60,646 nt of DNA from Phycisphaerales bacterium (lineage in GTDB: Bacteria; Planctomycetota; Phycisphaerae; Phycisphaerales; SM1A02), in contig SIAR01000012.1 in assembly GCA_009691705.1 (NCBI GenBank), positions 1 to 60,646 of the forward strand, read 5' to 3'. The notes under the pieces are model-generated. The model was given only the letters and a program-made list of their open reading frames with translations. It did not search any database and had not been told where the DNA came from. Shown one piece after another: positions 43,989 through 46,291 of this stretch; within the stretch, counting starts at the first letter, position 1; each line of letters begins with the position of its first letter. The translations under genes were made by a program, and so were the position numbers.

Positions 43989-44288
43989 GTGCCGTCGAAA
44001 ACTCCGCGACCAAACGAAAGCCCGCGCGAAAAGTCCCGCGAAAACCCAACCGAGAGCCAAGAGTCGTTGCTCGCGCGTGTTCGCGCGGTCGTTGACTTGA
44101 TCCGACCCGACATTCAAGCAGACGGCGGCGACGTCGAGGTCGTACGAGTGAAAGATGGAATCGTGGACATGCGCTTTCACGGAGCATGCGTGGGATGCCC
44201 CTCGAGCAACATGACCTTGCAATCGGGCATCGCAACCCAGTTGCGCCAAGCTATTCCTGAAATTACTGAAGTTCGCGCGCTGAACTGA
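43989..44288 (+). CDS. NifU C-terminal-domain (Nfu-type) Fe-S scaffold protein
   Basis: 99 residues. A polar N-terminus (residues 1-25) precedes one NifU-like domain: VDLIRPDIQADGGDVEVV and GACVGCPSSNMTLQSGI, with the CxxC pair that holds a transferable Fe-S cluster. Size fits a stand-alone Nfu carrier. GTG start at 43989, with TAGACT 6 bases upstream. Ends 20 bases from the convergent csrA stop. Confidence 0.9.
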   Translation: MPSKTPRPNESPREKSRENPTESQESLLARVRAVVDLIRPDIQADGGDVEVVRVKDGIVDMRFHGACVGCPSSNMTLQSGIATQLRQAIPEITEVRALN

Positions 44289-44308
44289 CGCGATGGCAAG
44301 AATCTGGC

Positions 44309-44545
44309 TTACGCGCCACCCTCGGCCGCTGGCCGAATCTGTCCAATGACGTTCTTGGTGGGATCGACCGCTCCAGCGAGAATCTGCTCAGCCACTTCCT
44401 TGCGGTGCACGGCAACTTCCCGCGGGAACTCAAAAGCGATGCGCACGCGGTCCCCCTTGATCGAGGCAATCCGAACGATCCCAATTGGGGATGCGGGATT
44501 TCCGATCACGACTTCTTCGCCTTCGCGTCTGGTGATGACCAACAT
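44309..44545 (-). CDS. csrA: Carbon storage regulator, RNA-binding protein CsrA
   Basis: 78 residues. Binds GGA-containing hairpins in mRNA leaders and regulates translation as a homodimer. MLVITRREGEEVVIG at the N-terminus and FPREVAVHRKEVAEQI carry the two RNA-binding surfaces, including the VHR arginine equivalent to Arg44 of E. coli CsrA. A 15-residue tail follows. The ATG at 44545 is preceded by AGGAGGT, the best Shine-Dalgarno sequence in the window, which itself contains GGA. A structured RNA with several CsrA-type sites lies 210 bases upstream. Convergent with the NifU-like gene. Confidence 0.95.
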   Translation of the reverse strand: MLVITRREGEEVVIGNPASPIGIVRIASIKGDRVRIAFEFPREVAVHRKEVAEQILAGAVDPTKNVIGQIRPAAEGGA

Positions 44546-44753
44546 AATGCGCTGACCTCCTGCCCTTGACACGGTGGGGCGTCGCCCACCGACTTGTTCA
44601 GCTCGCCTCGGACGCACCGTGCGTCCTCCCTGCGAATGCCTAGCAGACTCACACACATCGGCTAGACGACTGACCTTCTTGAAGGGTATCGCTCGATCGG
44701 ATGGTTAGATCGGTGCAATTCACAATTCCAGAAAATACCCCGTTATGGGATCC
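44546..44753 (-). promoter_or_regulatory. csrA leader region with two hairpins and a strong Shine-Dalgarno sequence
   Basis: No gene is seen in these 208 bases. On the minus strand a hairpin GGACGCA/TGCGTCC (around 44614-44630) and a hairpin GGTGGG/CCCACC (around 44573-44590) precede AGGAGGT, which ends 9 bases before the csrA ATG. GGA occurs next to the first hairpin and in the Shine-Dalgarno element, as in CsrA-autoregulated leaders. No convincing promoter was found. Confidence 0.45.
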
Positions 44754-44788
44754 AAAAAAGCCCCCGCGTCGGGCCAGTGACGCGGGGG
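44754..44788 (-). terminator. Rho-independent terminator after mraZ and the structured RNA
   Basis: Minus strand: CCCCCGCGTC pairs perfectly with GACGCGGGGG around an 8-base loop, then CTTTTTT. It separates the mraZ transcript from csrA. Confidence 0.92.
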
Positions 44789-44993
44789 ACAACAGCGATA
44801 TCGGGGTGGATAACGAACCATCCCGAGAATTTGTACGACATTGCCATCCATGGCGGATGCCGTACGTGCTTGCGGGTCATCCATAACCCGTTTTTCCGCT
44901 CAGAAATCGCATCCTTGCGAATTCTGAGTGTTGATCGTTCGCTACGACGTCCGTGTCGAAGCGAGGTCTGCGTGGCGCGGGCGATCCATCACC
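44754..44993 (-). ncRNA. Candidate CsrA-sequestering RNA in the mraZ 3' region
   Basis: On the minus strand five hairpins follow one another, each with ANGGA in the loop: (1) 44993-44980, stem GGTG/CGCC, loop ATGGAT, overlapping the mraZ stop; (2) 44963-44940, CGCT/AGCG and CGAC/GTCG separated by a T-T mismatch, loop ACGGAC; (3) 44928-44899, CTCAGAA/TTCTGAG and TCGCA/TGCGA with a T-T mismatch, loop AGGA within CAAGGATG; (4) 44890-44873, CGGGT/ACCCG, loop TATGGATG; (5) 44865-44833, nine pairs GTACGGCAT/ATGTCGTAC then GCC/GGC, loop ATGGAT. A sixth stem at 44826-44801 (TCGGG/CCCGA outer pairs) and an intrinsic terminator end the element. This is the layout of CsrB/RsmZ-type RNAs. No separate promoter is evident, so it may be processed from mraZ mRNA. 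Orientation is set by the GGA loops and the terminator T-run. Confidence 0.7.
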
Positions 44994-45459
44994 GTGCACC
45001 ACCGGACCGTGAATTCAGAAGCTGATTGGCGTCGCGCCAAAGACTCGCCGCAGAAGAATCCCGTTCTTTCTGCTTGGCCTTCCAGGTCGCCGACGAAATC
45101 AGTTCCAAGTGATCGCGAACTCCAAGAATGATCACGGCTCCCGCCAGGGTGAACCGCGACAGAAGTCTGTCTGGAATGCGCACGCGTCCCGCTGAGTCGA
45201 GCGGACAGCGGGCGGCTTGGCTGAAGAATGACTGTTCGAATCGACGCAGTACTTCGTCGCCGATCAGAGAGCCACCATGATTCTGCGCGAGCTTCTCGAA
45301 CGTTCCGTTGGGCCAGAGAAGCAGTGCTTCGTCGGGTCCAGGAACTGCAACAAACGAATCGCCGTTGACCGCAGGATTCAACACTTCGCGCAATTCGCTT
45401 GGAATCGCGAGGCGTTGTTTGGAGTCGAGGCTGTGTTCGAATTCGCCGAGAAAGAGCAT
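44989..45459 (-). CDS. mraZ: Transcriptional regulator/cell division protein MraZ
   Basis: 156 residues with the two-fold AbrB-like MraZ architecture: FLGEFEHSLDSKQRLAIPSELRE and, in the second half, CPLDSAGRVRIPDRLLSRFTLAGAVIILGVRDHLELIS. MraZ normally heads the division and cell wall cluster and represses it through TGGGN repeats. Here no mraW, fts or mur gene follows; the next gene is csrA. The ATG at 45459 begins the conserved MLFLGEFEHSLD; the 16 extra residues possible upstream would lie in the promoter. Two TGGG boxes lie between its -35 and -10. Confidence 0.94.
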   Translation of the reverse strand: MLFLGEFEHSLDSKQRLAIPSELREVLNPAVNGDSFVAVPGPDEALLLWPNGTFEKLAQNHGGSLIGDEVLRRFEQSFFSQAARCPLDSAGRVRIPDRLLSRFTLAGAVIILGVRDHLELISSATWKAKQKERDSSAASLWRDANQLLNSRSGGAR

Positions 45460-45486
45460 GGGTGAGATCCATTGGGAGCCGTCATC

Positions 45487-45514
45487 AATATACCCACACT
45501 GCCCCACAATGCAA
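45487..45514 (-). promoter_or_regulatory. mraZ promoter overlapped by MraZ boxes
   Basis: Minus strand TTGCAT (45514-45509), 16-base spacer, TATATT (45492-45487). Within the spacer TGGGG (45506-45502) and TGGGT (45496-45492) are exactly 10 bases apart, the period of known MraZ boxes; degenerate TG-starting copies lie 10 and 20 bases further upstream. Fits autorepression. Confidence 0.6.
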
Positions 45515-45649
45515 CACTTTCAAACAAAATTCATGTTTCTCGCCACACAATGAACGGGCTGCGCGAGGTCCGAGAAGTGTTTGTGCCCGATAGTTTTTGT
45601 CGTAAACAACTGTAACGCAAACATTTGTGGACTTTTTGCAACCCCGACC

Positions 45650-45655
45650 TATATT
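45650..45655 (+). promoter_or_regulatory. -10 hexamer for the flavin-reductase-like gene
   Basis: TATATT, 39 bases before the ATG at 45695; TTGTGG (45625-45630) is a weak -35 at 19 bases. The 235-base gap between mraZ and this gene is AT-rich with T-tracts and no other gene is seen. Confidence 0.45.
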
Positions 45656-45694
45656 CCGTCAAGGAGTTTTTCTTTTTGGGATTTTGTTCCACCC

Positions 45695-46291
45695 ATGCAA
45701 ACCGATCGATCTGCGGCCAAACGTGAGAGTGTCGAGCATGTGCTCGAGCTCATCCCTTCATCTCTGTTCTTGCTGACCAGCGCCTATGGCGAGATGCGCG
45801 GAGGCATCATCGTGCGGTGCGTGCAACAGGTTGCAATGCAACCGTCGATGCTCTTGATCGCAATGGAAAAAGGTCAACCGATCTCACCGATCATTCGCGA
45901 TAGTCGCAACTTTGCACTGTGCATTTTGACGGTCGATGATCGCGCAACTCCAAAGATGTTCGCGAGTGATCGCAACCAAAGCGTCGATGCGTTTCTGACA
46001 ATTCCACATCTCGTAGCACCGGGTGGATGCCCTGTCCCGCTGCGCGCGCGCGGCTACGTTGCGTGCGAACTTGTGCGGCATCTCGATATCGAATCTGATT
46101 ACGAGGTGTACATCGGCATGGTGCATGCCGCGGCACTCGTTGAGCAACCGAAGGTGAAGTCGCCTTGTCCCGGACACGCCCGCGCCCATCCCAATGGTCG
46201 TGGACGAGCGCAAAATGTCGCGGCACCGATGCAAAAGGCGGCGAGTGCATCGCGCGCAAGTGAGCCTTCGAAAGCGCGTCGATCTTCCTAG
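45695..46291 (+). CDS. Flavin reductase-like FMN-binding protein
   Basis: 198 residues with a split-barrel flavin-binding domain (residues about 15-155): ELIPSSLFLLTSAYGEMRGGIIV, QVAMQPSMLLIAMEKGQPISPII and NFALCILTVDD are typical of flavoredoxin/flavin reductase proteins. The C-terminal 45 residues are basic and low complexity (GRGRAQN, SKARRSS). The substrate and electron partner are unknown. Its TAG stop forms part of the hexamer that precedes the amidohydrolase, 9 bases downstream. Confidence 0.8.
   Translation: MQTDRSAAKRESVEHVLELIPSSLFLLTSAYGEMRGGIIVRCVQQVAMQPSMLLIAMEKGQPISPIIRDSRNFALCILTVDDRATPKMFASDRNQSVDAFLTIPHLVAPGGCPVPLRARGYVACELVRHLDIESDYEVYIGMVHAAALVEQPKVKSPCPGHARAHPNGRGRAQNVAAPMQKAASASRASEPSKARRSS

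Follow-up and report, generated by a model that had tools for sequence, protein, structure and literature searches.

A row of GGA-loop hairpins 3′ of mraZ in Phycisphaerales as a probable CsrA sponge

The DNA analyzed here (hereafter the window) is a stretch of 60,646 nt from a Phycisphaerales bacterium (contig SIAR01000012.1 of assembly GCA_009691705.1). On its minus strand, between mraZ (44989-45459; 156 aa; PF02381, E 2.4e-20) and csrA (44309-44545; 78 aa), lies a row of hairpins exposing GGA in their loops (the array), for which mraZ is the presumed host transcript. Hairpin 1 (44980-44993; loop (A)TGGA(T)) holds the mraZ stop codon; hairpins 2 (44940-44963; loop ACGGAC) and 3 (44899-44928; loop AAGGAT) each have a stem interrupted by a T-T mismatch; and hairpins 4 (44873-44890) and 5 (44833-44865) again present (A)TGGA(T), all five being evident in both the sequence and the minimum-energy fold. 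They are followed by a sixth stem without a GGA loop, seen in the fold (44801-44826), and by an intrinsic terminator (44754-44788) composed of a 10-bp stem (44788-44761), an 8-nt loop (ACTGGCCC), and a T-run to 44754.

All of these elements, namely, the five GGA hairpins, stem 6, and the terminator, are part of the minimum-energy structure predicted for 45000-44740. Its energy is −110.4 kcal/mol, compared with a shuffle mean of −90 (standard deviation 4.84; z −4.2); none of 200 shuffles folded as well. A preliminary description of this DNA had placed five minus-strand GGA-loop hairpins at 44993-44833, two of them split by a T-T mismatch, followed by an extra stem and a 10-bp terminator with a T-run, and had proposed folding the segment as a check; the coordinates and motifs proved correct to the base, and the predicted structure reproduces the hairpins. 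Its statement that all five apical loops present ANGGA is accurate for hairpins 2 and 3, but in the model of hairpins 1, 4, and 5 the A is paired with U, leaving a tetraloop NGGA. Under a strict rule for ANGGA hairpins (loop ANGGAN, at least five pairs, one mismatch allowed), which is conservative in that it detects three of the five window hairpins, the window contains eight sites on both strands together, and three of these fall into the array, within 71 nt. Sampling 334 kb of this genome yielded 40 strict sites, no two of them less than 250 nt apart on one strand. Scanning the window at Rfam gathering scores returned a transfer RNA (tRNA) as the sole match and no CsrB, CsrC, or RsmX/Y/Z model; a permissive scan of 44500-45100 gave five matches, all under the gathering score and none from a Csr/Rsm family, the best being NsiR1 (27.4 bits, gathering score 39, E 0.0027), which covers stem 6 and the terminator. 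The array thus has no CsrB/RsmZ match in Rfam, yet, judged from its sequence, it probably works like one of these RNAs.

To assess conservation, 19 genomes of the genus to which the window belongs were sampled, and the 18 with mraZ were aligned with MAFFT without structural information (mean column identity 59%). The GGA of hairpins 1-4 is invariant in 18 of 18 members, and that of hairpin 5 is likewise present in all 18, the alignment slipping at this place. When the structure of the window was imposed on the alignment, 80.3% of 1128 cells formed standard pairs, compared with 35.1-43.0% when the partners were slid by one to three columns. Changes on both sides occurred in 27 of 67 pairs (9-14 when slid; shuffled mean 20.0), corresponding to 80 cells (34.7 in shuffles, 14-30 when slid), and the covariation score was 0.192 (slid 0.037-0.088; shuffled mean 0.101); the shuffles ignore relatedness, and the slid control is biased in favor of the imposed structure because this was taken from one row. 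By hairpin, both sides had changed in four of eight pairs of hairpin 2 (93.8% of cells paired), in six of eight pairs of helix 3 and one of three pairs of helix 4 in hairpin 3, and in three of seven pairs of hairpin 4. Thus, hairpins 1-4 and the terminator are well supported, the outer stem of hairpin 1 being mixed. Unaided, RNAalifold recovered hairpins 1 and 2, the outer part of hairpin 3, hairpin 4, and the terminator; of the 40 pairs in its structure, 16 had changes in both partners. Two genus members (G014 and G004) have gained an extra ANGGA hairpin inside hairpin 3. Unlike the other stems, the terminator stem-loop CCCCCGCGTCACTGGCCCGACGCGGGGG hardly varies within the genus, even in its loop, and 17 of 18 loci carry its 18-nt core without a change; the palindromic GGCC in this loop might make kissing dimers possible. 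No second copy of it as such a hairpin was found in the window or the 334-kb sample.

The sample of the order comprised 101 genomes, 93 of which had mraZ (94 matches), and counts were made on 90 of the 94, including the window locus and both loci of genome G030. Within 310 nt of the mraZ stop, the primary count region, ANGGA in a six-base loop on at least five pairs was found 195 times; the corresponding numbers were 3.5 for dinucleotide shuffles, 3 for the reverse strand, and 12 for the stretch of mraZ coding sequence just before this region. Of the 90 loci, 60 had at least two such sites, 41 at least three, and 11 none. Extending the region to 500 nt, or to csrA, gave at least two sites in 18/18 loci of the genus and in 30/38 loci of other genera of the window's family (at least one in 38/38), and in 4/10, 1/1, 0/6, 6/8, and 3/9 loci of families f2 to f6, respectively. 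Hairpin number and spacing differ between genera, and a terminator-like site lies no more than 520 nt from mraZ in 41 of 90 loci. The largest arrays include those of L118 (seven strict hairpins within 500 nt) and L093 (seven GGA loops in the predicted fold). Beyond the order, family spreads were picked by hand among the matches listed, and some of the stretches may be coding: 54 loci of the same class had 41 sites compared with one on the reverse strand (at least two sites in 8/54), and 20 loci of other classes of the phylum had none on either strand. As far as sequence comparison can tell, the array thus appears to have arisen within this class, with its greatest density in this order. A question left by the preliminary description was whether related genomes would lack the stems or the GGA loops; with GGA in 18/18 members, covarying stems in hairpins 1-4, and enrichment across the order, they do not.

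The loops themselves resemble CsrA sites. The 310-nt regions contain 492 hexaloop hairpins, 158 of which have GGA at loop positions 3-5, while the next most frequent triplet at these positions occurs in 17; regions 700-1450 nt downstream showed no GGA loop bias. In 197 hairpins, found by a search that demanded pairing only and did not preset the flanking letters, the closing base at −1 was C in 163, position +5 a pyrimidine in 168, and position +6 G in 168, and their 5′ arms comprised 48 different four-base sequences. This context converges on CANGGAYG, which is close to the published CsrA site, namely, the CsrB repeat CAGGA(U/A/C)G and the consensus from systematic evolution of ligands by exponential enrichment (SELEX), whose winners were mostly hexaloop hairpins with GGA (PMC7652899). 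With several GGA motifs in hairpin loops and, in the window, an intrinsic terminator, the array shares two traits of the CsrB/CsrC/RsmX/Y/Z families.

As to which gene the array goes with, the preliminary description had noted its adjacency to csrA. This is correct for the window; across loci, however, the RNA tracks mraZ. In the window's family, csrA lies downstream of mraZ, at no more than 0.8 kb, in 52 of 56 loci, 25 of them co-directional and 27 convergent (in the remainder, csrA was upstream in one and not found in the stretch taken in three), and the array is on the mraZ strand in both arrangements; all 56 loci have at least one site on that strand, with two in total on the reverse. The other five families contribute 34 loci, none of which showed a csrA next to mraZ; at least one site is nevertheless present in 25 of them. 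Because sites are on the mraZ strand also where csrA is convergent or not a neighbor, the array belongs to mraZ. Where csrA is not next to mraZ, no array was seen beside the second csrA (at most one strict site in each of 12 loci). In genome G030, which has two mraZ copies (L086 and L081), csrA was found beside only one. The usual partner of mraZ is rsmH. It was found in 98 of the 101 genomes; of 90 genomes with both genes, inspected by hand, 79 had them on different contigs and 11 on one contig, never less than 144 kb apart on the shared contigs, with the provision that broken assemblies may hide a neighborhood across a contig end.

Upstream of mraZ, the window has direct repeats with a 10-nt period resembling MraZ boxes (45487-45520, minus strand; AAAGTGT-tgc-ATTGTGG-ggc-AGTGTGG at 45520-45494). 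Such GTG-containing 7-nt repeats with 3-nt spacers correspond to those of MraZ-regulated promoters, in which GTG repeats form four 7-mers with 3-nt spacers (PMC7761207) and the site reads AAAGTG[T/G] (PMC8475190). Across the order, 67 of 90 loci have TGGG-N6-TGGG upstream of mraZ, in most cases at a distance of 43-60 nt from its start, compared with 1.1 expected from single-base shuffles and two for the complement; a looser pattern, for which no shuffle control was run, gives three period-10 repeats in 67/94 and two in 90/94. The repeats make MraZ control of array transcription plausible. They overlap a candidate promoter, TTGCAT-16-TATATT, which was picked by eye, whose first hexamer matches the consensus in three of six positions, and which is absent from the promoter scan; if it is a promoter, the arrangement fits repression by occlusion.

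The CsrA protein of the window is a divergent paralog, and no further CsrA gene was found in this genome, the assembly of which has 46 contigs and 1.99 Mb. It matches PF02599 above the family cut-off (55.9 bits, cut-off 27; E 4e-15), and its Arg48 aligns with Arg44 of E. coli CsrA, an RNA-binding residue (PMC7652899); Leu4 is replaced by Ile4. Between the strands near residues 17-22, it has four residues more than E. coli CsrA, and most divergent CsrA of family f1, such as this one (44309-44545), carry a C-terminal tail V-x-G-x-IRP after the CsrA fold. Judged by the best match per genome among the matches listed, the order has two kinds of CsrA, canonical (E about 1e-20 or better) and divergent (about 1e-14 to 1e-11). 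A tree of 73 short proteins, built on only 76 columns, separates eight canonical (96/87) from 63 divergent rows (95/83) and leaves one very long row, L171, unplaced. FliW was found in 77 of 101 genomes, the last four of the negative genomes having been assigned by elimination. Of the 77, 76 have a canonical CsrA, and G028 (74% complete) is without a CsrA match; of the 24 genomes without FliW, none has a canonical CsrA and 23 have one divergent CsrA, G018 (83% complete) being without. In the window's genus, neither FliW nor canonical CsrA was found in 19 of 19 sampled genomes. The gene following the canonical csrA looks flagellin-like by eye in seven of eight loci (Flagellin_N confirmed in three of seven, the number tested), and in these (L159-L164, L166), its ribosome-binding site lies inside a strongly conserved hairpin, CAATC-ANGGAG-GATTG; an analogous site for CsrA is known from hag of Bacillus (PMC7652899). 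This flagellin-leader hairpin, placed where the analogy with hag leads one to expect a CsrA site, serves as a positive control and suggests that CsrA recognizes ANGGA hairpins in these bacteria. ANGGA also directly precedes the csrA start codon in all eight canonical loci, including L165.

A CsrA sponge encoded in the mraZ 3′ region, as originally proposed, appears to be the best reading of the locus, given GGA in 18/18 genus members, covarying stems, and enrichment throughout the order; all of this, like the distribution, the terminator, the upstream repeats, and the CsrA and FliW gene content, was obtained by computation, and from it we infer CsrA binding, sequestration, co-transcription with mraZ, and MraZ control. 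The mraZ gene would be transcribed from a promoter covered by the MraZ-box-like repeats, and the transcript would continue through ∼235 nt of structured 3′ sequence to the intrinsic terminator. This 3′ part would display five loops of the CsrA type, or six in two members of the genus, and, either as full-length mRNA or as a cut fragment, sequester CsrA dimers, in the window's genus those of the neighboring divergent CsrA, the only one found. With CsrA held on the array, mRNAs repressed by CsrA would be freed. Given that E. coli MraZ is an autorepressor (PMC8475190), the MraZ level would set the level of the sponge. Taken as a whole, we consider it likely that transcription of mraZ yields an mRNA with a CsrA-sequestering 3′ end, the level of which is set by MraZ.

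Several observations weigh against it. Over 44280-45700, the promoter scan lists nothing promoter-like on the mraZ strand, be it ahead of mraZ or within the gene. Some array stems are longer than the at most four contiguous pairs of most SELEX winners (PMC7652899), and two stems are only weakly conserved in the genus, the long one of hairpin 5, in which 39.0% of cells pair (inner part, 70.7%), and stem 6 (54.7%). Strict hairpins range from 0 to 7 per locus of the order, and nine of 90 loci have none in 500 nt, including all six of family f4 (L073, L076, L077, L080, L082, and L087), whose genomes do have CsrA; the four matches added later to the 90, from G047, G061, G080, and G095, have 0 (in 139 nt available), 1, 0, and 1 site, respectively, that is, two loci with one and two with none. 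The pairing with divergent CsrA is not exclusive either: in f5, eight of nine genomes have a single, canonical CsrA (G080 has three matches and no site 3′ of mraZ), and sites nonetheless occur in seven of the eight counted loci, so that the array may serve either CsrA. Four of the six f4 loci share the stretch AGGGATCGCCCGTCGGAGCATGGTCGATGATCACG 3′ of mraZ, with a close variant in L076, and this stretch might form a related hairpin whose loop differs in size; a tRNA at this place was ruled out, as ARAGORN found none in the six loci.

Other explanations were weighed against the same observations. The array might be a separate small RNA (sRNA) gene driven by a promoter of its own within mraZ; it would still be a CsrA sponge, overlapping with a sponge in the mRNA tail and differing from it in control. 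In the literature, CsrB/C and RsmX/Y/Z are sRNAs in their own right (PMC7652899, PMC7366521), and among 16 genus members synonymous-site conservation is 0.60-0.61 in the last 26 mraZ codons compared with 0.43-0.52 in codons 14-130; this rise is small, however, the first 13 codons being the most conserved (0.89), and the scan found nothing promoter-like inside mraZ, although it misses the proposed mraZ promoter too. We consider an independent gene less likely than an mRNA tail. Alternatively, mraZ could be a CsrA target instead of the source of a sponge, with CsrA on the array acting in cis to stabilize or destabilize the mraZ mRNA. The array does lie 3′ of mraZ regardless of the csrA arrangement, and the mraZ stop codon is inside hairpin 1, but five or more sites past the stop codon would seem to exceed the need of a cis effect, and hairpins have been gained in two genus members; such an element, which we deem improbable, would be compatible with a sponge and does not exclude it. 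It is very improbable that the loops bind another reader of GGA, be it a different RNA-binding protein or the anti-Shine-Dalgarno sequence of the ribosome: GGA does occur within Shine-Dalgarno sequences, but the CANGGAYG context and the hexaloop closure fit CsrA (PMC7652899), and a similar element is found at the flagellin-like leader in seven of eight canonical csrA loci. A csrA leader or attenuator for CsrA autoregulation, suggested by csrA being downstream on the same strand in the window, is hardly credible, being contradicted by the 27 of 52 downstream csrA genes that are convergent, by the terminator between array and csrA in the window, and by the sites in 25 of 34 loci of other families without csrA found beside mraZ. 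Chance hairpins, of which many are expected in GC-rich genomes, can practically be dismissed on account of the fold z, the enrichment over shuffles, the covariation, the GGA loop bias, the 334-kb sample, and the site-free loci of other classes.

CsrA sponge RNAs have been described mainly from gammaproteobacteria, and MraZ is known as a regulator of cell-division genes. If the array is a CsrA sponge, it resembles CsrB-type RNAs in consisting of a row of GGA-loop hairpins that ends in an intrinsic terminator and in the titration of CsrA proposed here, and it differs in its smaller number of GGA loops (CsrB has 22 GGA; PMC7652899), the lack of a match to the Rfam models of these RNAs, a place in mraZ 3′ sequence with MraZ-box-like repeats upstream, and a planctomycetal origin. 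A comparable RNA would be RsmU of Xanthomonas, which sequesters RsmA and is processed from an mRNA 3′ untranslated region; its host gene, though, is predicted to encode ComEA, the RNA is reported there from Xanthomonas only, and, according to the same account, replacing its four GGA motifs abolished neither binding nor the overexpression phenotype (PMC7694677). MraZ-type repeats upstream of mraZ are shared with the autoregulated mraZ of E. coli, Mycoplasma, and Burkholderia, where the operon carries cell-division genes (PMC8475190, PMC7761207); here, unlike there, mraZ is apart from rsmH and followed by the array. Antagonism by FliW, which has been suggested for CsrA in Planctomycetes (PMC4682653), would similarly release CsrA targets; it differs in that FliW, although detected in 77 of the 101 genomes, was not found in any of the 19 from the window's genus. 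One review treats sRNA mimicry and FliW as two mutually exclusive mechanisms (PMC7366521). Many genomes of this order combine FliW with a sponge-like array, and the window's genus shows the array only. In the open-licence literature, no description of this RNA was found among the titles and abstracts of the matches listed, most subscription papers and preprints lying outside that search.

Tentatively, the order may have two CsrA circuits, each with an antagonist of its own, one of canonical CsrA, FliW, and flagellin, and the other of divergent CsrA and an MraZ-controlled sponge, of which loss of motility removed the first and the second stayed. In the second, a global post-transcriptional regulator would come under the control of MraZ by way of the 3′ end of the mraZ mRNA. 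We consider this possible without favoring it. The prediction of a CsrA sponge in the mraZ transcript is concrete and can be tested in cultured relatives. If it is true, CsrA titration would have originated independently in this group, within an mRNA tail and tied to MraZ.
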